Source of the DNA: Frigoribacterium faeni
Lineage (GTDB): Bacteria > Actinomycetota > Actinomycetes > Actinomycetales > Microbacteriaceae
Direction: 5' to 3'
DNA: 64,000 nucleotides
Assembly (NCBI RefSeq): GCF_011761235.1
Contig: NZ_JAAOYW010000001.1
Span: 62,781 to 126,780 of the forward strand
Shown: positions 42,431-56,453 of the stretch, piece after piece
Position numbering within the stretch: position 1 is the first letter of the stretch
Layout of the letters: each line of letters begins with the position of its first letter
Notes under the pieces: model-generated
Database searches by the model: none
What the model was told of the DNA's origin: nothing
The model's input: only the letters and a program-made list of their open reading frames with translations
Made by a program: the position numbers and the translations under genes

Positions 42431-42474
42431 CCCCTCGCCCGTGGGGTGATTAACACGGGCTATCCGCAGGGTGA

Positions 42475-42502
42475 ACGGCAGGTGGGGACACCTGCCGTTC
42501 GT
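42475..42502 (+). terminator. terminator of the osmoprotectant operon
   Basis: 12-bp perfect stem GAACGGCAGGTG / CACCTGCCGTTC, loop GGGA; no U-tract. Confidence 0.7.
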
Positions 42503-42910: not shown

Positions 42911-43119
42911 GGGCCCCGCCGACGAACCACCCGACGTCGGCGTCGCCCACGACGTCCGTCGACGCCGTGCTGCCGTACCCGCGGCAGCCGGACGACACGA
43001 CGCCCGTCGACCCTCGTCGTCCGGACGAACCCGAAACTCGCCCGGACGGCTGTTCCGTTGCCCGACGCCGCCCGAAACGGCGCCGGTGTCATTCGTCGCC
43101 TACCCGAGCACGAGTCCCC

Positions 43120-44772
43120 ATGCCCAGCAGCCCGTCGTCCCTCCGTACCCTCTCCCACTCCGGCCGCCCCGCCGGGACGGCCACCCCGGCCGCCCCTGCC
43201 CCGGTCGCACCCGCCCGTCCGGCCGGCGAGCCCGTCGACGCCGTCCGTGCCGTGCCCCGGGCGGTCGTCGCCGACCCGGCCCGCACCTCCTCCCCCCTCG
43301 TCGGCCGTGCCGCCGAGACGGTGACGGGTGCGCGCTGGGCGCTCCGCTACCGCCGTCGTCTCCGCGTGACGGACACCGCGGTCGTCCTCGCCAGCGTCGT
43401 GGCCGCCGCCGTGGTCGACGTCGTCGACGACCTCGTCTCGCAGGGCGCCGGGTCGCCGTCGGCCGTCGTCGACGGGGTGCTCGCCGCCCTCTGGCTGCCC
43501 CTCGTCGTCGCCGTCGTCTGGACGGCCGCGCTGGCCCTCTACCGCAGCCGCGACCTGGCCGTGGTCGGCAGCGGCGTGCTCGAGTACAAGCGGGTCGGCA
43601 GCGCCAGCGTCCTCGCGTTCGTCGTGGTGGCCGTCTGGTTCTCGGTCACCGGCCACGTGGGCGGCCAGGAGTACTTCCTCGTCGCGCTGCCCGTCGGCGG
43701 CGCCGGGCTCGTCGTCGGCCGCTGGGCCATGCGACGGTGGCTCGAGGCCCAGCGGGGCGCCGGCCACTACCTCTCGCGCGCCGTCGTCGTCGGCAGCCGC
43801 GAGGACATCGCCTACGTCGTCGACCGCATCGACGCCACCAGCGGGGCGGTCTACGACGTCGTGGGCGCCGTGCTCACGGATGACGAGCCCGACGCGTCCG
43901 GCGTGGTCATCGGCGACCGCGTCGTGCCCGTCGTGGCGGGGCTCGACGACGTGCCGCGGGCCGTCTGGCGGCTCAGCGCGGAGAGCGTCATCGTCGCCGG
44001 CGACGCCGGCCGCGGCCGCGACTGGCTGCGCGACCTGGGCTGGTCGCTCGAGGGCCGCGCCACCGAGCTGGTGCTCGCCTCGCGGCTGACCAACGTCGCC
44101 GGGCCGCGCATCCACTTCCGCCCCGTCGAGGGCCTGCCCCTGATGCACGTCGAGCTGCCCGAGTTCGACGGGCCGCGCCACGCGATGAAGCGTCTCTCGG
44201 ACGTCGTCCTGGCCGGCAGCGCCCTGCTGGTGCTGGCACCGCTCCTCCTCGTGCTCGCCGTCGCCGTGCGCGTCGACAGCGCCGGCCCCGTGCTGTTCCG
44301 GCAGCGTCGCGTCGGCCGCGACGGCCGCACCTTCGAGATGCTCAAGTTCCGGTCGATGGTCGTCGACGCGGAGCAGCTGCTCGGCGGCCTGGGGACGGCC
44401 GACGAGGGCGCCGGACCGCTGTTCAAGATGCGCCACGACCCCCGGGTCACCCGCGTGGGCCGCGTGCTGCGCAAGTGGTCGCTCGACGAGCTGCCGCAGC
44501 TCTGGAACATCGTCCGCGGCGAGATGAGCGTCGTCGGCCCGCGTCCGCCCCTGCCCCGCGAGGTCGCCGACTACGAGCGCCACGTCCACCGCCGGCTGTA
44601 CATCAAGCCGGGCCTGACCGGGATGTGGCAGATCAACGGCCGCAGCGACCTGAGCTGGGAGGACAGCGTCCGACTCGACCTGTACTACGTCGAGAACTGG
44701 TCGCTGACCGCCGACCTCGTCATCATGTGGCGCACCGTCCGGGTGCTGCTCCGTCACGAAGGGGCCTACTGA
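43120..44772 (+). CDS. polyprenyl-phosphate sugar-1-phosphate transferase
   Basis: Initiating enzyme of surface polysaccharide synthesis (WcaJ/WbaP/ExoY type): loads the first sugar phosphate on undecaprenyl phosphate. A polar Ser/Pro/Ala N-terminus is followed by four membrane helices (residues about 85-205), a nucleotide-binding-like cytosolic domain (RAVVVGSREDIAYVVDRI) and the C-terminal transferase domain from MKRLSDVVLAGSAL, with MLKFRSMVVDAEQLL, WSLDELPQLWNIVRGEMSVVGPRPP and KPGLTGMWQINGRSDLSWEDSVRLD. ATG 43120 gives 550 residues; upstream frame is leader. Stop and next start overlap as TGATG. Confidence 0.92.
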   Translation: MPSSPSSLRTLSHSGRPAGTATPAAPAPVAPARPAGEPVDAVRAVPRAVVADPARTSSPLVGRAAETVTGARWALRYRRRLRVTDTAVVLASVVAAAVVDVVDDLVSQGAGSPSAVVDGVLAALWLPLVVAVVWTAALALYRSRDLAVVGSGVLEYKRVGSASVLAFVVVAVWFSVTGHVGGQEYFLVALPVGGAGLVVGRWAMRRWLEAQRGAGHYLSRAVVVGSREDIAYVVDRIDATSGAVYDVVGAVLTDDEPDASGVVIGDRVVPVVAGLDDVPRAVWRLSAESVIVAGDAGRGRDWLRDLGWSLEGRATELVLASRLTNVAGPRIHFRPVEGLPLMHVELPEFDGPRHAMKRLSDVVLAGSALLVLAPLLLVLAVAVRVDSAGPVLFRQRRVGRDGRTFEMLKFRSMVVDAEQLLGGLGTADEGAGPLFKMRHDPRVTRVGRVLRKWSLDELPQLWNIVRGEMSVVGPRPPLPREVADYERHVHRRLYIKPGLTGMWQINGRSDLSWEDSVRLDLYYVENWSLTADLVIMWRTVRVLLRHEGAY

Positions 44773-45380
44773 TGCGCCGCCGCACCGCCCTGCTCTCCGG
44801 GGCCGGCGTCCTGGTCGTCGCGGCAGCCGCCGTCGTCGTGGGGGTCGTGGTCGCCACGAGCGCGCCCGACGCCGCGGCGACCGCCGGCGGCATCGACGCG
44901 CCCGCCTACGTCACCACCGAGACCGGGGCGCCCGTCGTCGAGCGCGACGGCGTCACCGCCCCCGACGACCGCGTCGCGGCCGACCCCGCGCCCTTCGGCG
45001 GCACCGTCGACTACGCGGACGGGCTGACCGTCCGCACGGAGGCGGTCGACCAGGGCACCGTCACCTCCACGGGCGCCGGCGTCGTCACCGGGGCCCCGTT
45101 CGTCGTCTTCTCGGTGACGGTGCACAACGGCACGGACGCCGACGTCGACCTGACGAGCGTCGTGCCGAGCCTCCGCGCCGGCTCCGACGTGGTCCCGGCC
45201 GCGCCGCTCTACGACGACGTCGACGTCGCCGACCTCGACAGCGTCGTCGCCGCGGGCGACGACGTCACGGCCCGCTACGCGTTCGTCGTCCCCGACGACC
45301 GCCGCGACGAGGCGACGCTGTACCTCGACCTGGACGGCGTCCACGCGCCGGCCACCTTCACGGGGAGCCTGCCCCGATGA
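44772..45380 (+). CDS. membrane-anchored beta-domain protein, DUF4352-like
   Basis: Unassigned 202-residue protein with one N-terminal helix (residues about 8-30, LLSGAGVLVVAAAAVVVGVVV) acting as signal anchor. An extracytoplasmic domain follows with the pattern DYADGLTVRTEAVDQG...FVVFSVTVHNGTDADVDLTSVVPSLRAG, which resembles the immunoglobulin-like DUF4352/telokin fold of secreted actinobacterial proteins. ATG 44772 overlaps the transferase stop; its own TGA overlaps the flippase ATG. It may be an accessory of polymer assembly; no enzymatic motif is seen. Confidence 0.8.
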   Translation: MRRRTALLSGAGVLVVAAAAVVVGVVVATSAPDAAATAGGIDAPAYVTTETGAPVVERDGVTAPDDRVAADPAPFGGTVDYADGLTVRTEAVDQGTVTSTGAGVVTGAPFVVFSVTVHNGTDADVDLTSVVPSLRAGSDVVPAAPLYDDVDVADLDSVVAAGDDVTARYAFVVPDDRRDEATLYLDLDGVHAPATFTGSLPR

Positions 45381-46831
45381 CCGCCACCACCCACGGCGGG
45401 CGCGGGCCCGCACGCACCGCGCCGCCGGTCGCGCCCCGTCCGCGTCGCCGCGTCCACGTGCTGGGCGCGCTCGGCGGACAGGGCACCCAGGCCCTGCTCG
45501 GGCTGGCCGGCCAGATCGTCGCGGCCCGCCTGCTCGCACCGTCCGACTTCGGCGTCTGGGCCGTGCTCTACGGCGTCGTCGTCGTGTTCGCCGCCCTCGC
45601 GAGCGGCTTCGTCGGCGACTCGCTCACCGTGCTCGACCGGGGCTCGGCCGACGTGCGACGCGGCCTCTGGGCCTGGGCCGCCGTCTGGTGCCTCGCGCCC
45701 CCGGCCGTCGCGGGCGTCGTCATCGGCCTGTCCGGCGTGCTCGAGCCCGTCGAGGCGGTGCTCTTCGCCCTCGCGGCCGGCGCCTTCGCCGCCGAGGAGG
45801 TCGCTCGTCGTCTGCTCATGGCGCAGCTGCGCTTCTGGCGCCTCGTCGTCGTCGACCTCTCCGGCCTCGGCGCGCTCCTGGCCGTCGCCGGCGTGCTCGC
45901 CGCGGGCGGCACGACCGGGCTGCCCCTCCCGCTCGGCGCCCTCGCGGCCGGCCAGGCCGTCGCGCTCGTCGTCGCCCTCCTCCTGGCCGGGCCGCGTCGC
46001 TCGGCGGCGCCCGCCCCGAGCTGGGCCACCGGCCACAGCGGGGTGCGCATCGTGGCGGCCTACGGCTCGCTGCGGGCCGCGCAGGCCGTGGTGCGACCGT
46101 CCCTGCTGACGGTCACGCGCCTCCTCGTCGTGCTCTTCGTCGGCACCGCCGCGACCGGCGACCTCGAGGCGGCCCGCGTCTTCGTGGCGCCCGTCCTGCT
46201 GCTCGTCGGCGGGCTGTCGACGTACCTGTTCGCGACCTTCGCGGTCGCCCACGCCGTGCCGACCCGGACGCTCGTGCGCCGGGCCGACCGCGCGGTCCTG
46301 CGGCTGCTCGTCGGCGCCCTCGCCGTCGGCGCCGTGGCCGTGCTGCTCGCACCGGTCGCGGGCGAGCTCGTGGCCGGGCGGCCCCTCGACACCGTCGCCG
46401 TCGCCGCGTGGGCCGCCTACGCCGTGAGCGTCGCCGCCGTCACGCCCTACGGGTCGCTCGCCGCCGTGCGCGGCGGCCAGGGGCGCGTGCTCGCCGTCCG
46501 CGTCGCGGACTCGTTCTTCTCGCTCGCCGCGGCCGTCGCCGTGCTCGGCGTCGGCGCCCCGCCGGCCGCGGTCCCGCTCGCGCTCTGCACGGGCAGCGTC
46601 CTCGGCGGCCTGCTCGTGCGGCGCGTCGTGCTCAGCCTCGGCGACGCCGTGCCGGCCCGCGACCGGCCGGGCTCGTCCGGCGCCGGGCCGGCGTCGTCGA
46701 CCCGCGCCGACGACCTGGACGACGACCAGGACGACGACCGCCTCCTCGACGACCGGTCCTTCGCCCTGGCGAGCCGGCTCCGCCCCGAACACCCCTCATC
46801 CGAACACCCGACCCGAGAGACACGACCATGA
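45377..46831 (+). CDS. polysaccharide flippase (Wzx-like, MOP superfamily)
   Basis: Membrane protein with 12-14 helices and 484 residues, of the polysaccharide transporter family that turns lipid-linked oligosaccharide to the outer face. It opens with the typical GALGGQGTQALLGLAGQIVAARLLAPSDFGVWAVLYG (first helix, then RLLxPxDFG), and its second half has RIVAAYGSLRAAQAVVR. The last 45 residues are Asp/Arg-rich and cytosolic. ATG 45377 overlaps the previous stop (ATGA); its TGA overlaps the ATG of the LamG gene. Confidence 0.85.
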   Translation: MTATTHGGRGPARTAPPVAPRPRRRVHVLGALGGQGTQALLGLAGQIVAARLLAPSDFGVWAVLYGVVVVFAALASGFVGDSLTVLDRGSADVRRGLWAWAAVWCLAPPAVAGVVIGLSGVLEPVEAVLFALAAGAFAAEEVARRLLMAQLRFWRLVVVDLSGLGALLAVAGVLAAGGTTGLPLPLGALAAGQAVALVVALLLAGPRRSAAPAPSWATGHSGVRIVAAYGSLRAAQAVVRPSLLTVTRLLVVLFVGTAATGDLEAARVFVAPVLLLVGGLSTYLFATFAVAHAVPTRTLVRRADRAVLRLLVGALAVGAVAVLLAPVAGELVAGRPLDTVAVAAWAAYAVSVAAVTPYGSLAAVRGGQGRVLAVRVADSFFSLAAAVAVLGVGAPPAAVPLALCTGSVLGGLLVRRVVLSLGDAVPARDRPGSSGAGPASSTRADDLDDDQDDDRLLDDRSFALASRLRPEHPSSEHPTRETRP

Positions 46832-49800
46832 CCCCCACCCCTCGTCGAACGGCCCGCTCGGCCGTCGGCGTCCTCGCCCTCACGGCCCTCGTGGCCACGG
46901 GCCTCGCCTGGGCGCCCTCGGCCGCCTCGGCGGCGACGACGGCTGCCGTCCCCGGCATGACCGTCACCGGTGCCTACACCAGCAGCACCCCGGCCGGCAG
47001 CGCCGCCGCCGCGGGCACCGCCACCGTCAGCTCCGACGTCCTGCCGACCCCGCAGATCAACGGCGTCGTCTGGAGCACGGCCGTCGTCGGGAACACCGCC
47101 TACGCGGTGGGCGCCTTCACGTCCGCCCGCCCGTCGGGCAGCGCCCGGGGGCAGAACGAGGTCACGCGCAACAACGCGATGGCGTTCGACGTCCGGACCG
47201 GCGCGATCCTGCCCTGGAACCCGAACCTCAGCGCCCAGGCCCGGTCGGTCGAGGTGTCGCCGGACAAGGCGACGCTCTACGTGGGCGGCGACTTCTCGAC
47301 CGTCGGCGGCGTCGCCAAGAGCAAGATCGCCGCGTTCACCGTCTCGACGGGCGCCCTGAAGACCTCGTTCTCGGGGTCCATCTCGGGGTCGGTCTGGGGC
47401 ATCGCGCCCACCGCCACGACGGTCTACGTCGTCGGCTCGTTCGGCACCGCGAGCTCGAAGGCCCGCGCCAACGCCGCGGCCTTCACCGCCGCGTCCGGCG
47501 CCCTGACCGCCTGGAACCCGGGCACCGACAACATCACCCAGGCCGTCGTGGCCGCGCCCGACGACAGCCGCGTCGTCATCGGCGGCCGGTTCCAGACCCT
47601 CGGCGGACAGCCGATCGTCGGCATCGGCGCCGTCGACGGCTCGACCGGGGCGATCCAGCCCTTCGAGGCCAAGCCGATCACGCCCCAGCAGGGCACGAAC
47701 CGCTCCTGGGTCACCGACATGACCCTCGTCGACGGCGTCGTCTACGCGACCGGGAACGGCGAGGGCGGCCACTGGTTCGACGGCCGCTTCGCGACCCGCT
47801 TCGACACCGGCGCCCTCGTCTGGCTCGACAACTGCTACGGCGCCAGCTACGGCACCGCGGTCATCGGCGAGGTCGCCTACGCGGTCTCCCACTCGCACGA
47901 CTGCTCCTCGGTCGGGGCGTTCGCCGAGCAGTCGCCGAGCGTCTGGAAGCGCGCGACCGCCAACACGATCGCCGCGACCGGCACCGACCAGGCCGGGCCC
48001 AGCTCGGGCAGCATCTACTCGGGCCAGGCCACGCCGACCCAGCTGCCCTGGTACCCCGCCGTCAACTCCGGGTCGTACACGCGTCAGTTCCAGGGCGGCT
48101 GGTCGCTCGGCACGTCGTCGAGCACCGGGAAGTACCTCGTCATGGGCGGCGAGTTCACCCAGGTGAACGGCAAGGCCCAGGAGGGCCTCGCCACCTTCGC
48201 CACCCGCGACACGGCGCCGAACAAGGTGGCCCCGCAGTACGCGCCGATGAAGCCCACCGGGCTCTCGCTGGCCTCGGGCACCGTCCGCGTCTCGTTCCCC
48301 ACCACCTGGGACTACGACGACGGCAGCCTGACCTACCAGCTGCTCCGCGACTCCGGCACGACGCCGATCGCGACGCAGGTGGCGGACTCCCGCTTCTGGC
48401 GCCTCCCGACCCTCGGCTTCGTCGACACGGGCGTCGCGCCCGGCAGCAGCCACACGTACCGCGTGTCGGTGACGGACGCGGCCGGCAACACGTTCACGGG
48501 CTCGCGCTCCGACGCGGTCACCGTGTCGTCGTCGGCCGGCGACCCCTACGAGAAGGCCGTGGCCGCCGACGGCGCCACGAGCCTGTGGACCCTCGGCGAG
48601 GCCTCCGGCTCCGCCGTGTACGACCACGTCGGGTTCGCGGACGCCACGGCCACGGACGCCGTGACGCGGGGCCGGTCGGGCCCGGTCAGCACCACCGCGG
48701 CCTCGTTCGGCGGCCAGCAGGACTCGACGGTCGCCGCGAACGCGTCGGTCGAGGGTCCGCAGACCTTCACCGTCGAGTCGTGGTTCCGCACGACGAGCAC
48801 GTCGGGCGGCAAGATCGTCGGCTTCGGCGACCGCCAGACCGGCAACTCGTCGAGCTACGACCGTCACGTCTACATGGACGGCGCGGGACGCGTGACCTTC
48901 GGGGTCTACCCCGGCTACACGGCCACCGTGTCGAGCGGCCCCGGCCTCAACGACGGGCAGTGGCACCTCGCCACGGCCAGCCTCGGCTCGGCCGGCATGA
49001 GCCTGTCGATCGACGGCGTCAAGGTCGCCGCCCGCGGCGACGTGACGAGCGGCCAGGCCTACTCCGGCTACTGGCGGGTCGGCGGCGACTCCAACGGCGG
49101 CTGGCCGAACTCGGGCAGCGACTGGTTCACCGGCGACGTCGCCGACGTCGCGGTCTACCCGACCGTGCTCACGCCCGGCCAGGTCGACGGGCACTGGGTC
49201 GCCTCGGGACGCACCTCGAGCGTCCCCGCTCCCCCGACGGACGCCTACGGCAAGGCCGTGACGACCGACCAGCCGTCGCTCTACTGGCGCCTCGACGAGA
49301 CCGGCACGGGCTCGACCGCCGTCTCGACGACGCCCTCGCCGGACGCGGGCCTGATCACCGGCGGCGTCACCAAGGGCGTCCCCGGCGCCCTCGGCGGCAC
49401 CGGCACGGCCTTCGGCCTCGACGGCCAGCAGGGCCAGGTCGTGCAGGTGCAGGAGGCCCCGGCCCCCAGCACGTACAGCGCCGAGCTCTGGTTCTCGACG
49501 ACCAGCACCTCCGGCGGCAAGCTGATCGGCTACGGCGACTCCGCCCAGGGGCTGTCGAGCAACTACGACCGGCACGTGTACCTGCAGGACGACGGCCGCA
49601 TCGTGTTCGGCACCTGGACCGGCCAGGCCAACACGGTCACGACCGACCGCGCCTACAACGACGGCGCCTGGCACCAGGTCGTCGCCACGCAGTCGAGCGC
49701 GGGCATGGTGCTCTACGTCGACGGCGTCGCGGTCGGCACGAACCCGCAGGCGGGCGCCCAGGGCTACACGGGTCGCTGGCACGTCGGCGGAGACGTCACG

Positions 49801-50877
49801 TGGGGCTCGTCGAGCTCCTACGTGGCCGGCTCGATCGACGAGGTCTCGGTCTACCCGACGGCGCTCACCGCGGCCCAGGTCGCGGCGCACCACGACGCCG
49901 GCACCGGCGTCGTGACGCCGCCGCCCGCCCCGGCCAACGTCGCCCCGACGGCGTCCGGCTCGGCCACCTCGGCCGACCTGACCGCCAGCTTCGACGGCAG
50001 CGCGTCGTCCGACCCCGACGGGACCGTCGCCTCCTGGGCGTGGGACTTCGGGGACGGCTCGACGGGCACCGGCGCGACGGTGCAGCACGCCTACGCCGCG
50101 GCGGGGACCTACCAGGCCGTCCTCACCGTGACCGACGACGACGGCGCGACCGCCGGCACCACCGTGCCGGTGACCGTGACCGCCCCCGTGGTCGTGACGC
50201 CGCCGGTGGTCACGCCGCCGGCGACCACCGCCTACGCCGCCGACGCCTTCGAGCGCCAGACGACGGGCGGCTGGGGCACGGCGGACGCCGGAGGCGCGTG
50301 GACGACCCCGAACGCGGTCTCGTCGTTCTCGACCACCCAGGGCGCCGGCCAGATCAAGATGGCCGCCGCGGGCTCCGGGCCGCAGATCTACCTCGGCGGC
50401 GTGCAGGCCACCGACGCGGTCACCCGCGTCACCGTGGCCCTCGACAAGGTGCCCACCGGCGCCGGCGTGTACGCGTCGGTGATCGGCCGAGGCGTGACGG
50501 GCCAGGGCGACTACCGGGCCAAGGTCACGTTCCGCGCCAACGGCGCCGTCGCGGTCGCGCTGTTCCGCCAGGCGGCCGACGGCACGCAGACGGTCCTCGG
50601 CACCGAGAGCGTCGTCTCCGGCCTGACGTACGCGCCGGGCCAGAAGATCGCCGTCCTGCTCGAGGTCACCGGCACGTCGCCGACGACCGTCCGGGCGAAG
50701 GTCTGGTCCGCGGCGGGCTCCGAGCCCGCCACGTGGACCAAGACCGCGACCGACTCCACGGCCGGGCTCCAGGCGGCAGGGCGCGTGGGCTTCCACTCGT
50801 ACCTGTCCGGCTCGGCCACCAACTCACCCGTCGTCTCCTCGTGGGACGACCTGACCATCACGAAGGCAGGCGACTGA
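46828..50877 (+). CDS. large secreted multidomain protein: propeller, FN3, two LamG, PKD, C-terminal beta domain
   Basis: 1,349-residue exported protein. Signal peptide about 1-36 (ending SAASA). Domains in order: repeated strand motifs of a propeller-like region (about 60-430; NTAYAVGAFT, ATLYVGGDFSTVGG, TTVYVVGSF, SRVVIGGRFQTLGG), a fibronectin-III-like domain (475-565), two LamG/concanavalin-like domains (571-787 and 804-1024) sharing TFTVESWFRTTSTSGGK and YSAELWFSTTSTSGGK, a PKD domain (1036-1117; WAWDFGDGSTGTG) and a jelly-roll-like C-terminus (1134-1349). No LPXTG or catalytic motif seen. Probably a surface adhesin or polymer-binding protein; coupled to the flippase by ATGA. Confidence 0.85.
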   Translation: MTPTPRRTARSAVGVLALTALVATGLAWAPSAASAATTAAVPGMTVTGAYTSSTPAGSAAAAGTATVSSDVLPTPQINGVVWSTAVVGNTAYAVGAFTSARPSGSARGQNEVTRNNAMAFDVRTGAILPWNPNLSAQARSVEVSPDKATLYVGGDFSTVGGVAKSKIAAFTVSTGALKTSFSGSISGSVWGIAPTATTVYVVGSFGTASSKARANAAAFTAASGALTAWNPGTDNITQAVVAAPDDSRVVIGGRFQTLGGQPIVGIGAVDGSTGAIQPFEAKPITPQQGTNRSWVTDMTLVDGVVYATGNGEGGHWFDGRFATRFDTGALVWLDNCYGASYGTAVIGEVAYAVSHSHDCSSVGAFAEQSPSVWKRATANTIAATGTDQAGPSSGSIYSGQATPTQLPWYPAVNSGSYTRQFQGGWSLGTSSSTGKYLVMGGEFTQVNGKAQEGLATFATRDTAPNKVAPQYAPMKPTGLSLASGTVRVSFPTTWDYDDGSLTYQLLRDSGTTPIATQVADSRFWRLPTLGFVDTGVAPGSSHTYRVSVTDAAGNTFTGSRSDAVTVSSSAGDPYEKAVAADGATSLWTLGEASGSAVYDHVGFADATATDAVTRGRSGPVSTTAASFGGQQDSTVAANASVEGPQTFTVESWFRTTSTSGGKIVGFGDRQTGNSSSYDRHVYMDGAGRVTFGVYPGYTATVSSGPGLNDGQWHLATASLGSAGMSLSIDGVKVAARGDVTSGQAYSGYWRVGGDSNGGWPNSGSDWFTGDVADVAVYPTVLTPGQVDGHWVASGRTSSVPAPPTDAYGKAVTTDQPSLYWRLDETGTGSTAVSTTPSPDAGLITGGVTKGVPGALGGTGTAFGLDGQQGQVVQVQEAPAPSTYSAELWFSTTSTSGGKLIGYGDSAQGLSSNYDRHVYLQDDGRIVFGTWTGQANTVTTDRAYNDGAWHQVVATQSSAGMVLYVDGVAVGTNPQAGAQGYTGRWHVGGDVTWGSSSSYVAGSIDEVSVYPTALTAAQVAAHHDAGTGVVTPPPAPANVAPTASGSATSADLTASFDGSASSDPDGTVASWAWDFGDGSTGTGATVQHAYAAAGTYQAVLTVTDDDGATAGTTVPVTVTAPVVVTPPVVTPPATTAYAADAFERQTTGGWGTADAGGAWTTPNAVSSFSTTQGAGQIKMAAAGSGPQIYLGGVQATDAVTRVTVALDKVPTGAGVYASVIGRGVTGQGDYRAKVTFRANGAVAVALFRQAADGTQTVLGTESVVSGLTYAPGQKIAVLLEVTGTSPTTVRAKVWSAAGSEPATWTKTATDSTAGLQAAGRVGFHSYLSGSATNSPVVSSWDDLTITKAGD

Positions 50878-50880
50878 CCC

Positions 50881-52170
50881 ATGACCCTCGACACCACCAG
50901 ACCGACCGACCGGGGCGCGGGGGCGCCCGGGGCGTCGTCCGCGACCGCGGACGCCGCACCCGGACCCCGGCAGGCCGAGCAGTGGCTGCTCGACGTGGCG
51001 GACCTCCCGGAGACGCCCCCGCGTCGCCCCGGGGCCCGTCGCAGCAGGGTGCTCGTCGTGCACTCGTCCGACGAGATGTACGGCTCCGACCGGATCGTCC
51101 TCGAGGTCGTCGGCGAGCTCGCCGCCCGCGACGACCTCGACGTGACCGTGTGGCTGCCCACCGACGTGGCCGTCGGCCCCCTGGGGCCGCAGCTCCGGGA
51201 GCTCGGCGCCCGCGTCGAGCGCACCGCGCTGCCGATCCTCCGCCGGTCGCACCTCGGCCCGGTCGGCCTCGCGCGGCTCGCCCGCGACGCCGCACGGACC
51301 GCGGCGCGGCTCGCGGGCCGGCACTTCGACCTCGTCTACTGCGCCACCAGCGCGTGCCTCGTGGTCGCGCCCCTCGCCCGTCTCGCCGGCGTCCAGCACG
51401 TCGTCGGGCACCTGCAGGAGCCGTGGGGCGACACCGACCGCAAGGGGCTCCGTCCCCTCGCCCGGGCCTGCACCGCGCTCGTCGCCGTGTCGCGCTCGGT
51501 GCTCGGCAGCTCGGGGCTCGACGGCGACGACCGTGCCGTCGTCGTCCACAACGGCGTCCCGCGCCGGTCGCGCGACCTCGTCGCCGCTCCCGAGCACCGC
51601 CTCCCCCACTACCTGATGGCCAGCCGCTGGAACTCGCACAAGGGCCACAGCACCCTGCTGACCGCCTGGAACGCCGCGGGCTGCCCCGGCCAGCTCGTCG
51701 TCCTCGGCGGTCCGCCCGCCGTGGGCGCCGGCGTGGACGTGCCCGCCCTCGTGGCGGCGATCGTGTCCCGACCCGAGACGGTCACCGTCGTCGGCCAGGT
51801 CGCCGACGCCACCCCGTACGTGCGCGACGCCGACGCGATCGTGCTGCCCACCGACACGCTCGAGGGCTTCGGGCTCGTCGCGCTCGAGGCCTTCAGCGAG
51901 GGCCGTCCGGTCATCGCGAGCCGCAGCGGCGGACCGGAGGAGGTGGTGGTCGACGGCGAGACCGGCTGGCTGTTCGACCGCCAGGACGTCGACGCCCTCG
52001 CCGACATCTTCGCCGGCCTCGACGTCGACACCCTCGCGGCCGCCGGACGCCGCGCCCAGGCGACCTACCAGGAGCGCTACACGCCCGAGAAGATGCGGCG
52101 GCGCATCGGCGCCGTGGTGTCCCGCGAGCTGCACCGCGAGCACGGCCAGGACCTGGCGGTGGCCTCGTGA
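50881..52170 (+). CDS. glycosyltransferase family 4
   Basis: Retaining GT-B glycosyltransferase, the only recognisable glycosyltransferase in the operon besides the initiating transferase. N-terminal domain RVLVVHSSDEMYGSDRIVLEVVGEL; C-terminal nucleotide-sugar domain with LMASRWNSHKGHSTLL, TVVGQVADATPYVRDADAIVLPT and the EX7E motif EGFGLVALEAFSEGRPVIASRSGGPEEVV. An unstructured 50-residue N-terminus precedes the fold. 429 residues; ATG 50881 is 3 bp after the LamG stop. Donor and acceptor unknown. Confidence 0.9.
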   Translation: MTLDTTRPTDRGAGAPGASSATADAAPGPRQAEQWLLDVADLPETPPRRPGARRSRVLVVHSSDEMYGSDRIVLEVVGELAARDDLDVTVWLPTDVAVGPLGPQLRELGARVERTALPILRRSHLGPVGLARLARDAARTAARLAGRHFDLVYCATSACLVVAPLARLAGVQHVVGHLQEPWGDTDRKGLRPLARACTALVAVSRSVLGSSGLDGDDRAVVVHNGVPRRSRDLVAAPEHRLPHYLMASRWNSHKGHSTLLTAWNAAGCPGQLVVLGGPPAVGAGVDVPALVAAIVSRPETVTVVGQVADATPYVRDADAIVLPTDTLEGFGLVALEAFSEGRPVIASRSGGPEEVVVDGETGWLFDRQDVDALADIFAGLDVDTLAAAGRRAQATYQERYTPEKMRRRIGAVVSRELHREHGQDLAVAS

Positions 52171-52976
52171 CCCGGCTGGGGGCGACGCCCACGCGTCCCG
52201 AGCCGGCGACCGCCTCCTCGGCCGCGCCCCGGACGCCCGTGCCGCACGAGTTCCGGGCGGCCCTCTCGGCCCTCGCCTCGGCGCAGAAGTCGTCGAGCGG
52301 GGCGCCCGCCTACTCGCGCTACGTGAACCGGCGGCTCGGCCGCTGGGCCGCCGCCGCCGCGCACGTGCTGCGCGCGACGCCGAACCAGGTGACCGCGGTC
52401 AGCGCCGCGGCGACGTTCGCGGGCATCGCCGTGCTCGCGACCGTGCCCGCCGGCTGGCTGCCCGCCGTGCTGGTGCCCCTGCTGCTCGTCGTCGGCTACG
52501 CGCTCGACTCGGCCGACGGCCAGCTGGCCCGCCTCCGCGGCGGCGGCAGCCCGGCCGGCGAGTGGCTCGACCACGTCATCGACGCCACGAAGATCGCCGT
52601 GCTGCACCTCGTGGTCTTCGCGTCGTGGATCCGCGAGCCCGAGGGCAGGGAGGCGGTCCTCGCGCTGCCCCTCGCCTACCAGGTCGTCGCCACGGTCGCC
52701 TTCTTCGCCATCGTGCTCACCGAGCAGCTGCGGCGCGCCGAGTCGGTGGCCCAGGGGTCGCCCGTGCTGGTGCGCCGCCAGACGGGCACCCTCTACTCGC
52801 TCGCGGTCGTCCCGACCGACTACGGCCTGATGTGCCTCGTCTTCGTGCTGCTCGCGTGGCCCGGGGCGTTCACGGTGGCCTACCTCCTGCTCTTCGCGGC
52901 CAACGCCGCGTACCTCCTCCTCGCCCTGCCCAAGTGGTTCCGCGAGCTCCGCACCGACCCGATGAGGACCTCATGA
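52167..52976 (+). CDS. CDP-alcohol phosphatidyltransferase-family enzyme
   Basis: Integral membrane enzyme that moves a phospho-alcohol from a CDP-activated donor to an acceptor alcohol. The signature is complete: DSADGQLARLRGGGSPAGEWLDHVID matches D(x2)DG(x2)AR(x8)G(x3)D(x3)D. Six membrane helices in 269 residues. GTG 52167 overlaps the glycosyltransferase stop (GTGA). In an exopolysaccharide operon with a TagD-like cytidylyltransferase it may attach a CDP-activated polyol, such as CDP-glycerol, to a lipid or the growing polymer. The acceptor is not determinable. Confidence 0.88.
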   Translation: MTRLGATPTRPEPATASSAAPRTPVPHEFRAALSALASAQKSSSGAPAYSRYVNRRLGRWAAAAAHVLRATPNQVTAVSAAATFAGIAVLATVPAGWLPAVLVPLLLVVGYALDSADGQLARLRGGGSPAGEWLDHVIDATKIAVLHLVVFASWIREPEGREAVLALPLAYQVVATVAFFAIVLTEQLRRAESVAQGSPVLVRRQTGTLYSLAVVPTDYGLMCLVFVLLAWPGAFTVAYLLLFAANAAYLLLALPKWFRELRTDPMRTS

Positions 52977-54649
52977 CCAGCACCGCCCGCGCCGTCGTCG
53001 TCGACGACCGCCTCGACCTCGGGGACTACCTCCGCTTCGTCGCCCAGCACCTCGTGGTCGTCGTCGTGGCCGCCGTCCTCGGCCTCGCCGCCGGGGTGGG
53101 GCTGTCCCAGGTGGCCCCTGCCTCGTACACCGCCCAGGCCACCGTGTTCGTCCGGGCCGACGCGCCCGGGTCGAACCTCGACGAGCGCTCGTCGTTCGCG
53201 CTCCGCCAGGTCGCGTCGTACGCCCAGCTCGGCACGAGCGCCCAGGTGCTCGGGCCCGTGGCCCAGGCCGAGGGCGTCTCGCTCGCCGACCTGGGCGAGC
53301 GAGTCGCCGTCACGAACCCCGTCGACACCGTGGTGCTGCTGGTCTCCGCGACCGACTCCACCGCCACCGGCGCGGCCGACCTCGCCGACACCGTCGCGGG
53401 CCGCCTCTCCGACACGGTCGACCAGATCGAGTCGTCCGAGGGCGCCGACGGCCAGACCGTCGCGCTCGACCTGACGGCGCCCGCCCCGGTGCCCACGTCG
53501 TCCACCGGCCCGAGCACGGTCGTGCTGGGCCTCCTCGGCCTGCTCGTCGGCCTCGGGGCGGGCGTCGCCCTCGCGATCGTCCTCGCCCGCACCCGCCCGC
53601 GCGTCAGCACGGTCGACGACGTGCGCCGCGCCACGGGCCTGCCCGTGGTCGGCCAGCTGCCGACCGTCGTGCGCCGCTCTGACGACCCCGACGGCCGCGG
53701 CGCCTCGGCGTCGACCCGGACGGCGCTCCGCGAGACGGTGCAGAACGTCCGTGCACTCCGCGGCGGCGAGCTCCCCCGCGTGCTGCTCCTGGCCCGCACC
53801 GACACGGTCGCCGAGGCGGCGGGCGTCGACGGCGGCCTCGCCCGGGCGGTCGTCGAGCTGGGCTCCACCTGCGCGCTGCTGCAGTCCGACTACGACACGC
53901 GCACCGTGTCGCGTCCGTCGACCGTGCCGGTCGACGCGCTGCCCGAGCTGACGGAGGCGGACCTCGCCGGCTACGACCGCGTGCCGGTCCCCGACGTGGT
54001 CGAGGCCTCGACCCGGTCGTTCGTGCGCTCCGGCGTGGAGCAGTTCTTCGCCCAGCTGCGCGGCACCTACGACGTGACCGTGGTGCAGTCGGCCTCGGAC
54101 TCGCAGCCGCTCTCCCTGCGGACGGTCACCTCCGAGTCCGACGAGGTCGTGCTCGTGGTGCGGGCCGGGGCCACGCGCCTCGAGTCGCTCCGCAGCCTCG
54201 CCGCCGAGCTGATGAGCCTCGACGTCGAGCCGATCGGCGTCGTCCTGGCCGGCGTCCCCCGCTGGCGCCGCGTGCTGCTGCGCGCGACCTGGCGCGACGA
54301 GGACTTCCGCCACGTCGGCCGCACGGGCACCGCCCTCGCCGCCCCCGCCCGCACGACCGCCCCGACGAGCGACCGCGCGTCCGGCGAGCGTTCGACGGGC
54401 GAGCGCGTGACGGGCGACCGTCCGACGAGCATCGCCGGTCTGGTGCAGGACCCGTTCACGACGACCGCCCCGATCGTCCCCGCCGAGAAGGCGACGGAGG
54501 TGCGGGAGGCATCCGAGACGGCGTCGCCCGCCGAGGCCCCGGCCGCCGCCCCTGCCCGCAAGCCGCGCGGCAAGGGCCGTGTCCCGCGGCCGAGCCGCCC
54601 GGCGCGTCCTGCCCGCGGCACGGACGACGGCGCGGACGACGGCGAGTGA
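52973..54649 (+). CDS. Wzz-like chain-length protein with a degenerate BY-kinase domain
   Basis: Polysaccharide co-polymerase. Wzz domain: membrane helix about 23-45 (LVVVVVAAVLGLAAGVGLSQ), extracytoplasmic coil with YTAQATVFVRAD, second helix about 182-203. The cytosolic part (about 255-440) aligns by eye with bacterial tyrosine kinases (PRVLLLARTDTVAEAAGVDGG...CALLQSDYD; YDVTVVQSASDSQPL; EVVLVVRAGATRLESLRSLAAEL). However, the Walker A, A' and B motifs are gone: no GxxxxGK(S/T), and Gln and Ser replace the aspartates. A disordered Thr/Pro/Lys tail ends the 558 residues. ATG overlaps the previous stop (ATGA). Confidence 0.83.
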   Translation: MTSTARAVVVDDRLDLGDYLRFVAQHLVVVVVAAVLGLAAGVGLSQVAPASYTAQATVFVRADAPGSNLDERSSFALRQVASYAQLGTSAQVLGPVAQAEGVSLADLGERVAVTNPVDTVVLLVSATDSTATGAADLADTVAGRLSDTVDQIESSEGADGQTVALDLTAPAPVPTSSTGPSTVVLGLLGLLVGLGAGVALAIVLARTRPRVSTVDDVRRATGLPVVGQLPTVVRRSDDPDGRGASASTRTALRETVQNVRALRGGELPRVLLLARTDTVAEAAGVDGGLARAVVELGSTCALLQSDYDTRTVSRPSTVPVDALPELTEADLAGYDRVPVPDVVEASTRSFVRSGVEQFFAQLRGTYDVTVVQSASDSQPLSLRTVTSESDEVVLVVRAGATRLESLRSLAAELMSLDVEPIGVVLAGVPRWRRVLLRATWRDEDFRHVGRTGTALAAPARTTAPTSDRASGERSTGERVTGDRPTSIAGLVQDPFTTTAPIVPAEKATEVREASETASPAEAPAAAPARKPRGKGRVPRPSRPARPARGTDDGADDGE

Positions 54650-55944
54650 CCGTGCCCTCCCCCTCGCGGCTCGCCTCCGCCCCCGTCGTCCTGCCCGCGG
54701 CCTCGCCGCGCGCGGCGGCGTGGCGGGGCGCGACCGCGCTCCACGACGACCTGCCGTCCGCACGACACCTGGTGCGCCCGGCGGTCGTCATGACCGTGCT
54801 GGTCGCCTCCGTCGTGCCGTGGCGCACCGGCGTGATCTACGACGGCGGCCTCGACCCGATCGTCGCGGCGAAGGCCGTGCTCGCGGCCGTCGCCCTCGTC
54901 CTGGCCCTCACGGGCTCGCCCGCGGGACGCGACGGCCGGCACCTCGCCAACCGGGTCGGACCCGTCGCCGTCGCGTTCCTGCTCGCCTACCTCGGGATCG
55001 CGTTCGTCGGCGGAGTCTCCGCCGGGCTGACCTCGTCGACCGCGGTGCTGGTCGTCCGGGTGCTCATGGTCGCGGCGACGATCGTCGCGGTCGTGCACCG
55101 CAGCGAGCCGCGCGTCGTGGTGCGGTCGCTGCTCCTCGCCCTGGGCATCGTCGGGGCCGTCTCGGCCCTGTCGGGGCTGCAGGTCTACCTGGCCGGGGGG
55201 CGCCTCGCCGGCACCCTGCCCGCCCTGAGCCCGAACGAGATCGCCCTGCTGCTCGGGCTGCCGCTCATCGGGGTCGTCCACCGCCTCCTCGTCGAGAAGG
55301 CGACGCCGGCGTCGCTGGCGCTCCTGGCCGTCCTCGTGGCGCTCTTCGTCACGACGGGGTCGCGCGCGGCGTTCCTCGCGGCGCTCGTCGCCGTCGCCGT
55401 GGCCGTCGTCGCGGCGCGGCGGGTCCGCCCGTCCGTGGCCGTCGTGGTCGCCCTCGGGGTGCCCGTCGTCGTCGCGGTCCTCGCGACCACCGACCTGCTG
55501 ACCCGGGTCGTCGAGCGGGGCGGCGACAGCGCGAGCATCGCCACGCTCAACTCGCGCACGATCGCGTGGAACACCGTGCTGCAGGCCGATCCCGCCACCT
55601 GGGGCCGCTGGATCGGCTCCGGGCTCACCGTCAAGCAGGTGCCCGTCGCCGGCCAGTACTGGGCCGAGCAGGTGCTCGACAGCAGCTGGATCTCCGCGCT
55701 CGCGCAGGCGGGCGTCGTCGGCGCCGCCCTGCTCGCCGTCTGGGTCGTGGTCGGCCTCGTGACGGCGGGCCGTGCCAGCCTCCGCGTCGTCGGGTTCGGC
55801 GCCGTCCTGCCCGCGTTCGTCTTCATCGTCATCAGGAGCGTCGTCGAGAGCGGGCTGGTCGACTCCAGCAGCGCCTTCGTCGCCTTCTTCACCCTGGTCG
55901 TGCTCGCCGAGTCGGCCCCTCGTCCCCGGAGCGTGACCCCGTGA
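54646..55944 (+). CDS. O-antigen ligase/polymerase-like membrane protein
   Basis: Wzy/WaaL-type protein with 10-12 membrane helices in 432 residues. The O-antigen ligase domain is marked by LSPNEIALLLGLPL, FVTTGSRAAFLAALVAVAVA and the long loop after it (SRTIAWNTVLQADPATWGRWIGSG) with a following WISALAQAGVVGA segment. In this operon it is the only candidate to polymerise flipped subunits or ligate the polymer to its acceptor. GTG 54646 overlaps the Wzz-like stop (GTGA). Confidence 0.85.
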   Translation: MTVPSPSRLASAPVVLPAASPRAAAWRGATALHDDLPSARHLVRPAVVMTVLVASVVPWRTGVIYDGGLDPIVAAKAVLAAVALVLALTGSPAGRDGRHLANRVGPVAVAFLLAYLGIAFVGGVSAGLTSSTAVLVVRVLMVAATIVAVVHRSEPRVVVRSLLLALGIVGAVSALSGLQVYLAGGRLAGTLPALSPNEIALLLGLPLIGVVHRLLVEKATPASLALLAVLVALFVTTGSRAAFLAALVAVAVAVVAARRVRPSVAVVVALGVPVVVAVLATTDLLTRVVERGGDSASIATLNSRTIAWNTVLQADPATWGRWIGSGLTVKQVPVAGQYWAEQVLDSSWISALAQAGVVGAALLAVWVVVGLVTAGRASLRVVGFGAVLPAFVFIVIRSVVESGLVDSSSAFVAFFTLVVLAESAPRPRSVTP

Positions 55945-56453
55945 CCTCGTCCCCCGAACTCCTCGACCCCGCCACCTCCCGACCGGGAGGCGCAGGCCGC
56001 GTCGGCTACGCGGCCGGTGCCTTCGACCTGTTCCACATCGGCCACCTCAACCTGCTGCGGCACGCCCGGCAGCACTGCGACCACCTCGTCGCGGGCGTCG
56101 TGTCCGACGAGATGCTCGCCCTGACGAAGGGCATCACGCCCGTGGTGCCCCTCGCCGAGCGGCTCGAGATCGTCGACCACATCGACGTCGTCGACACCGC
56201 GTACGCCGAGACCGTGCCCGACAAGCTCGACGTCTGGCGTGAGCTGCGCTTCGACGTCTTCTTCAAGGGCGACGACTGGCGCGGCACCGAGAAGGGGCTG
56301 CGACTCGAGCGCGAGTTCGCCGAGGTCGGGGTCGAGGTCGTGTACTTCCCCTACACGATGAGCACGTCGAGCACGGTCCTGCGCAGGGCGCTGCGGGCGC
56401 TCTCGGGCGGGGCGCCGGCGCAGGAGGCGGCGACCGCGGACCGAGGTCGCTGA
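55941..56453 (+). CDS. cytidylyltransferase, glycerol-3-phosphate (TagD)-like
   Basis: Nucleotidyltransferase of 170 residues that activates a small phospho-alcohol with CTP. The HxGH motif is in GYAAGAFDLFHIGHLNLLRHAR, and the C-terminal STSSTVLRRAL corresponds to the family ISTT region; KGDDWRGTEKG lies between. This pattern is that of glycerol-3-phosphate or ethanolamine-phosphate cytidylyltransferases. GTG 55941 overlaps the ligase stop (GTGA), last gene of the operon. It probably supplies the donor for the CDP-alcohol phosphotransferase four genes upstream. Confidence 0.85.
   Translation: MTSSPELLDPATSRPGGAGRVGYAAGAFDLFHIGHLNLLRHARQHCDHLVAGVVSDEMLALTKGITPVVPLAERLEIVDHIDVVDTAYAETVPDKLDVWRELRFDVFFKGDDWRGTEKGLRLEREFAEVGVEVVYFPYTMSTSSTVLRRALRALSGGAPAQEAATADRGR

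Follow-up and report, generated by a model that had tools for sequence, protein, structure and literature searches.

What do nine genes laid end to end build when some of them look like polysaccharide-assembly genes, two handle a CDP-activated alcohol and one encodes a giant secreted protein? We addressed this question for a 64,000-nucleotide stretch of the genome of Frigoribacterium faeni (the window), in which nine open reading frames (ORFs), here called g1 to g9, fill positions 43120 to 56453 of the + strand. A previous inspection of the letters without database searches (the sequence-only reading) had proposed a minimal glycopolymer-plus-adhesin system of Wzx/Wzy type, and the family matches of g1 and g5 to g9 supported the Wzx/Wzy assignment. 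Our preferred answer, which we hold with about even confidence, is that the genes form a Wzx/Wzy-type exopolysaccharide operon whose polymer would carry a phospho-alcohol and would have a dedicated extracellular partner protein, the product of g4. To our knowledge, the genetics of the surface matrix in Microbacteriaceae is little charted.

The gene boundaries, the 1-bp and 4-bp overlaps and the single 3-bp gap given by the sequence-only reading were exact (Table 1). A codon-based gene caller of our own recovered the identical nine-gene chain, but with shorter g3 and g6. Frigoribacterium sp. PhB116, the closest named relative of the locus (g4 identity 90% over the best segment; the search with g4 may have left out the window's own record), also has all nine genes, and every junction is spaced alike there, down to the 3-bp gap that follows g4. 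Because both the caller and PhB116 reproduced the chain, it was not attributed to chance. From gene packing alone, we infer that the nine genes are co-transcribed. Consensus scans gave nothing above chance: no sigma-70-type promoter was found, one terminator-like site was found against 0.7 expected (internal, at 46496), and none followed g9.

The sequence-only reading had labelled g4 a LamG/PKD protein. Both domains were present, but a propeller-like domain of about 430 residues at its N-terminus had been missed. This propeller occurs together with g6 (CDP-alcohol phosphotransferase family) and g9 (cytidylyltransferase family). The 60 Microbacteriaceae genomes searched, the source genome among them, represent 59 genera; g4 was present in 15 of them and g6 (E ≤ 1e-15) in 18. 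Strong g9 matches (E < 1e-35) occurred in exactly the 18 genomes with g6, the source genome among them (Fisher 1e-15), and weaker ones (E 4e-13 to 8e-11) in five further genomes. All g4 genomes except one, G028, also had g6 (14/15), and the two genes were less than 20 kb apart in 12 of these 14 (gene distances in the family and class genomes were calculated by hand); in G008 they lay near the ends of two separate contigs. The g6 genomes without a close g4 (G016, G021, G044 and G048) encoded, directly before g6, a propeller protein with a different head, which was found at full length in only these four of the 60 genomes; shorter matches to it covered the propeller in g4 genomes and the rear part in others. 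A propeller protein was thus present in 19 genomes, including 18/18 with g6/g9 (Fisher 2e-14). Relatives of g1 were far commoner (45/60), so the g4/g6/g9 set characterises one subtype and is no property of all loci that have such a transferase. Since another genome of the same genus (G035) had no match to g4, g6 or g9, the locus is accessory rather than a genus trait.

The pattern extended to a sample of 118 Actinomycetia genomes, in which up to 22 (g6) or 11 (propeller) candidates per genome were scored and absences are accordingly less sure. The g6 profile matched 13 genomes and the propeller profile 40, namely 13/13 with g6 versus 27/105 without it (Fisher 2e-7), many of the 27 with partial matches only. 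The propeller was encoded within about 12 kb on the g6 contig in 12 of the 13; in G106 the propeller was on a different contig from g6, which lay close to a contig end. In these samples g6 implied a propeller protein, and the reverse failed. The explanation of a chance neighbourhood was rejected on this whole-genome co-occurrence (60 + 118 genomes). As to the different head, that of one protein (L089) matched Fibrinogen_C at 18.8 bits, below the cut-off of 22; the head of L097 had no Fibrinogen_C among its Pfam matches, though it was alike by eye, and the other heads were likewise assigned by eye. Propellers with such fibrinogen-C-like heads replaced the LamG type near g6 at nine loci of other actinobacteria (L088, L089, L090, L097, L107, L109 and L111–L113).

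Neighbourhoods were compared at 79 distinct loci, found with the best 80 of 123 g4 relatives, so that all counts over 79 concern the best-scoring ones. Families were labelled by hmmsearch with models from our own clusters, on genes called by our own small caller with approximate start positions. Two loci (L047, L057) belong to one organism with identical propellers, and the 60-genome sample is not independent of the loci, since the two overlap (G039 is probably the genome of L004, and G033 that of L025). The families found were DUF1972-type glycosyltransferases (53 loci), GT4 glycosyltransferases (53), the anchored g2/c4 family (51), Wzy-type proteins (49), CDP-alcohol transferases (46), Wzz (38), g1-type transferases (34), cytidylyltransferases (33) and Wzx (32); one or other of the CDP-alcohol pair occurred in 54. 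Leaving g2/c4 aside, at least two of the other eight, the assembly families, were present at 70 loci, one at a single locus and none at eight, which were seven Cryobacterium copies and one 5.3-kb contig. At least two propeller genes stood on the bait's strand at 29/79 loci, and at 33 a same-strand g2/c4 member immediately preceded the propeller gene or its tandem.

The nine-gene order itself was rare. Among the loci annotated it was seen only in PhB116 (L003) and, with one inserted glycosyltransferase, at a Glaciihabitans locus (L004) and its probable duplicate L094, so that a general nine-gene unit is not supported. Nor is "minimal" supported: other loci carry more glycosyltransferases, and L004, the nearest outside Frigoribacterium, has a tenth gene, for a DUF1972 glycosyltransferase. 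Linkage of the giant secreted protein and the CDP-alcohol genes to assembly genes, far from being absent elsewhere, repeats across Actinobacteria; it is broader than the sequence-only reading claimed, and the labels "adhesin" and "minimal" exceed the evidence. No description of the nine-gene set was found in the open-licence PubMed Central literature searched.

Searches with Pfam (all nine proteins) and with NCBIfam/TIGR profiles, scored against the family cut-offs, suggested roles for the polymer-assembly genes. The g1 product matched TIGR03025 (399.6 bits, cut-off 295.55) and Bac_transf PF02397 (233 bits) and would be a polyprenyl glycosylphosphotransferase, loading the first sugar-1-phosphate onto a lipid carrier; it scored below the cut-off of the XrtA-type family TIGR03013 (199.7 bits, cut-off 393.35). 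A weak match of g3 to Polysacc_synt_3 PF13440 (14.2 bits, cut-off 23), about 10 hydrophobic segments and pathway logic point to a probable Wzx-type flippase. Matches to PF13692 (76.9 bits) and PF00534 (72.3 bits) identified g5 as a GT4-type glycosyltransferase, and Wzz PF02706 (28.9 bits, cut-off 25.5) identified g7 as a Wzz-type chain-length regulator. With 11 hydrophobic segments, g8 matched Wzy_C PF04932 slightly below the cut-off (28.7 bits, cut-off 31.7). This family bears the name O-antigen ligase, and the sequence-only reading had called g8 O-antigen-ligase-like; a Wzy_C-type polymerase is more likely because the pathway needs one and the nine genes offer no other candidate. By Pfam, the nine proteins included no second ligase-type match. 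The arrangement is like that of Gram-positive Wzx/Wzy exopolysaccharide and capsule loci in its clustered phosphotransferase, glycosyltransferase, probable flippase, probable polymerase and chain-length genes. Unlike them, it adds a CDP-alcohol pair and an anchored/giant-secreted pair, and no nucleotide-sugar or LytR-CpsA-Psr (LCP) attachment gene was matched by Pfam among the nine. A DUF1972 transferase is encoded elsewhere in the source genome.

The g7 protein has a kinase-like C-terminal extension (residues ~240–430), of which residues 355–425 weakly matched TIGR03029 EpsG (21.9 bits, cut-off 313.8). No Walker A motif was seen there by eye, and the extension is maybe a dead kinase domain.

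The g6 protein matched CDP-OH_P_transf PF01066 (31.1 bits, cut-off 22) and had six hydrophobic segments. The catalytic motif of CDP-alcohol phosphotransferases, DxxDGxxAR...GxxxDxxxD, was intact: D113, D116, G117, R121, G130, D134 and D138 were invariant in 36 aligned sequences, and A120 was conserved in at least 90% of them (numbering of alignment A3). Among solved structures, the g6 profile matched AF2299 (8e-9), PIPS, CPT1 and CEPT1, of which at least PIPS and CPT1/CEPT1 are lipid enzymes. The g9 protein matched CTP_transf_like PF01467 (58 bits, cut-off 21), and its profile matched PCYT2 (7e-31), TagD (8e-18) and the Fom1 cytidylyltransferase domain (1e-15). A cytidylyltransferase followed by a CDP-alcohol phosphotransferase, with PCYT2 as the best solved match of g9, recalls the Kennedy pathway (PCYT2 + CEPT1/CPT1); unlike that pathway, g6 and g9 are distant homologues inside a polysaccharide operon, and the likeness of g9 to PCYT2 is one of profiles. 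In a wide sense g9 also belongs to the TagD family of teichoic acid synthesis, but it scored far below the cut-off for glycerol-3-phosphate cytidylyltransferase TIGR01518 (60.3 bits, cut-off 165.4). The transferase g6 is of CDP-OH_P type, and no teichoic CDP-glycerol glycerophosphotransferase (TagB/TagF type) was among the Pfam and NCBIfam matches listed for the nine proteins (for g5, 25 of 30 NCBIfam matches).

By analogy, the cargo of g6/g9 is likely to be glycerol phosphate or phosphoethanolamine, the former ranked first because its precursor is presumably ubiquitous. PCYT2 is reported to make both CDP-ethanolamine and CDP-glycerol, the latter serving glycan modification, and the mammalian glycan concerned, on alpha-dystroglycan, binds laminin, a binding that glycerol phosphate lowers (PMC8587909). 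The likeness to alpha-dystroglycan and laminin is a curious parallel, no more. Phosphonate tailoring was considered since g9 matches the Fom1 domain, and rejected since PEP mutase TIGR02320 was above its cut-off in 0/18 g6/g9 genomes (best 136.8 of 319.55 bits). Sub-threshold PEP mutase matches were present in 18/18 g6/g9 genomes and in 6/14 control genomes. Phosphonyl-tailoring PntC clusters share cytidylyl activation for surface tailoring with g9; unlike g9 (PF01467), the PntC enzymes described there are of PF12804 (PMC6697681). Phosphonates therefore appear unlikely as the g6/g9 product. At a further locus (L095, genome G009, assembly 86% complete), g1, g6 and the DUF1972 gene are apparently in pieces, through sequencing errors or decay.

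The g4 protein begins with a signal peptide with an AxA site, read by eye; its sole hydrophobic segment is 9–27. It continues with the propeller-like domain (~41–470), an FN3-like stretch (our own label; Pfam gives no FN3 match in g4), two LamG domains, one PKD domain and a conserved C-terminal domain (1125–1349); two LamG_3 stretches and one PKD were above the Pfam cut-off. Relatives differ in how many LamG, PKD and C-terminal domains they have. The C-terminal domain also stands alone in five proteins, and 5/104 of its matches fall in a cluster of right-handed beta-helix proteins. This cluster was represented at 24/79 g4 loci (L006–L013, L015 and others), for example at L007:8062–9750; two members tested matched Pfam Beta_helix, and three read by eye open with a membrane segment or signal. 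The right-handed beta-helix is a fold common among polysaccharide-active enzymes, and these proteins are candidate polymer-processing enzymes. The source genome (3.2 Mb, five contigs) has one full g4 copy; apart from it, a single partial match, LamG-like, was found on contig C4.

Conservation in the propeller was assessed on 113 of 116 matches, three short ones being omitted. Residues identical in 113/113 included C336, G338, Y351, H355, H357, C359, P410, Q422, W425, Q451, G453, D495 and D497. As g4 has no cysteine in its 1349 residues besides C336 and C359, a disulphide between these two, framing a His-x-His site, is likely. The alignments used for profiles held the window plus 70 relatives (A1, propeller; 80% identity filter, capped at 70), 52 of 70 listed (A2, C-terminal domain), 35 of 37 (A3) and 24 of 25 (A4). 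Among solved-structure sequences, the propeller profile found no convincing match (the best, at E 0.012, fell in the FN3-like part) and the C-terminal profile no relevant one. A kinship with Rax2/DUF5122 propellers is suggested by a weak Rax2 match of g4 (23.1 bits, cut-off 28.8) and by a relative, L043:1218–3137, that passes both Rax2 (47.6 bits) and DUF5122 (27.6 bits, cut-off 27); g4 differs from them in staying below the cut-off, in its invariant Cys/His set and in its lectin-like modules. Unlike sortase-anchored adhesins, g4 contained neither an LPxTG motif nor a C-terminal membrane segment. It also had no NCBIfam match, a PEP-CTERM sorting signal included, and with g1 below the TIGR03013 cut-off this sets the locus apart from XrtA/PEP-CTERM systems. 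An adhesin is one role in keeping with lectin-like and propeller domains, which would also suit a matrix organiser or an enzyme.

The g2 protein has a single N-terminal hydrophobic segment (10–28), matches DUF4352 weakly (14.4 bits, cut-off 25.9) and is homologous to the anchored c4 family of other loci (profile comparison: probability 99.8, E 7e-28). It is probably a membrane-anchored protein with a DUF4352-like outer domain and a partner of g4.

The propeller tree has 79 rows, for the window and 78 of the 79 loci (L076 is absent from those shown), and its root serves for drawing only. The window, PhB116 and Glaciihabitans fell into one group (100/100) with Streptosporangiaceae and Actinomadura, on long branches and apart from the other Microbacteriaceae. 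The relatives of window g1, g6 and g9 in G004 were 63, 70 and 82% identical, and its propellers 39–41%. Modules seem to have been exchanged.

Several observations weigh against a dedicated exopolysaccharide operon with a matched partner protein. The assignments of g2 and g3 rest on weak matches. Distances correlated weakly or unevenly between families (propeller–g6 rho 0.19, g6–g9 0.14, g2/c4–propeller 0.32; −0.20 to 0.63 over all family pairs); sequence co-evolution is therefore not supported, and the mirror-distance result was not used as support. In the seven Cryobacterium loci (L016, L017, L018, L019, L022, L033 and L058) the g4 relative stands beside heme-synthesis genes, and the fetched flanks contain no assembly genes; we suggest that these are captured or re-used copies. 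None of the 13 Streptosporangiaceae g4 loci had g6/g9 in the fetched flanks, G028 was the only one of the 60 genomes with a propeller (a g4 relative) and no g6/g9, and four class-sample genomes (G176, G075, G087 and G113) encoded a full-length or near full-length propeller without g6. The phospho-alcohol is therefore not needed by every g4 relative. The class sample has 12 g6 genes besides that of the window; the surrounding 20-kb stretch contained a propeller in eight cases and a cytidylyltransferase in eight (one weak). Finally, g4 lies 1.2 Mb from g6/g9 in G004, and g9 about 450 kb from g4 in G014. A split into separate units, which would count against the sequence-only reading, is thus found in part, yet the parts are retained: in G004, g1-GT4-g6-Wzz-g9 stand at one site and the propeller, anchored protein, polymerase and transferases at the other, a largely complementary division.

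From the observed gene content, packing, co-occurrence and linkage, we infer the following chemical steps, substrate, acceptor and binding of the polymer by g4. The sugar phosphate would be loaded on the lipid carrier by g1, and g5, perhaps aided by the DUF1972 transferase from elsewhere in the genome, would extend the lipid-linked glycan. A CDP-activated small alcohol, most likely CDP-glycerol and next CDP-ethanolamine, would be made by g9, and from it g6 would transfer the phospho-alcohol, most likely to the glycan on its lipid carrier at the inner face of the membrane. The glycan would be flipped by g3 and polymerised by g8, with g7 setting its length. The membrane-anchored g2 and the secreted g4 would be the polymer's dedicated outer partners, and g4 would bind and organise the polymer at the cell surface.

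Of the rival explanations, all of which we consider unlikely, the one deserving most weight is that g6/g9 make a lipid, by placing the CDP-alcohol on diacylglycerol or polyprenol to yield an unusual membrane lipid or the polymer's lipid anchor. The lipid enzymes PIPS and CPT1/CEPT1 among the solved relatives of g6, and its six hydrophobic segments, fit such a role. In most loci examined, however, g6/g9 stand beside flippase, polymerase or transferase genes and the propeller protein, and a membrane lipid alone leaves the tie to an extracellular protein unexplained. Rather improbable, to a somewhat greater degree, is that g4 is not a binder but an extracellular enzyme trimming, cross-linking or modifying the polymer. 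The invariant Cys/His/Tyr/Asp set of the propeller resembles an active or metal site, and proteins of the beta-helix cluster, themselves potential enzymes, accompany g4 at 24/79 loci; against this stand the lack of a convincing match of the propeller profile to a solved enzyme (best E 0.012), the loss of the His-x-His spacing in the fibrinogen-headed type (read by eye) and the chance that the two cysteines are a mere structural disulphide.

Less probable again is that g4 is a carrier to which the polymer is covalently attached, that is, a secreted glycoprotein. There is a precedent in Actinomyces oris, where the wall-polymer transferase LcpA is reported to glycosylate the surface protein GspA (PMC7831098), and g8 falls in a family named for O-antigen ligases. 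However, neither an LCP-type nor a second ligase-type match was present among the nine, g8 would be needed as the polymerase, and g4 has no LPxTG. We give the least credence to hitch-hiking in glycan gene islands, in which the genes would be grouped without functional coupling. The weak distance correlations agree with it, as does the grouping of the window's g4 with Streptosporangiaceae and Actinomadura instead of other Microbacteriaceae, a sign that parts are reshuffled; but the presence/absence pattern is far tighter than that of g1 and holds even where the parts are distant (G004, G014), which hitch-hiking does not predict.

Table 1. Positions in the window of the nine genes and of the conserved propeller stretch.
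Feature	Position	Strand	Remark
g1	43120..44772	+	first ORF of nine
g2	44772..45380	+	1-bp overlap with g1
g3	45377..46831	+	4-bp overlap with g2
g4	46828..50877	+	1349 aa; 4-bp overlap with g3
Propeller Cys/His stretch, g4 codons 336–359	47833..47904	+	113-domain alignment
g5	50881..52170	+	3-bp gap after g4
g6	52167..52976	+	4-bp overlap with g5
g7	52973..54649	+	4-bp overlap with g6
g8	54646..55944	+	4-bp overlap with g7
g9	55941..56453	+	4-bp overlap with g8

On the 5' side, a glycine-betaine-type ABC transporter operon ends before g1. About 40 bp past it lies an inverted repeat (42473–42500) of two perfectly matching 12-bp arms around a 4-nt loop, possibly the terminator of that operon, without a T-run. 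ARAGORN predicted a 95-nt tRNA-Arg at 43016–43110 (−), which had no Rfam match at gathering score and is probably false; integration at a tRNA was dropped as an explanation for this reason. On the 3' side, an ORF without a Pfam match is followed by opposite-strand genes resembling those for a pyrimidine-dimer glycosylase, a helicase and DNA polymerase IV. A second polymer locus of the same genome (contig C2, L083 4704–19999) encodes Wzz, a DUF1972 glycosyltransferase and a Polysacc_synt protein, next to a divergent ORF, 3035 aa or more in length, that contains 23 DUF7507 and 12 DUF11 stretches.

Beyond this one operon, we tentatively propose a surface system widespread among actinobacteria. 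An exopolysaccharide would receive a phospho-alcohol, perhaps glycerol phosphate, from a Kennedy-type enzyme pair, and the propeller/lectin encoded with it would read the polymer, so that glycan and lectin would be matched within a lineage. Heads (LamG or fibrinogen-like) and transferases would be swapped, with g6/g9 and the propeller constant. If this is true, the recurring set gives candidate genes for the making and holding of the actinobacterial surface matrix, g6/g9 would be a candidate bacterial counterpart of glycerol-phosphate glycan tailoring, and the propeller would be a conserved, so far uncharacterised domain that may contain an active or metal site.

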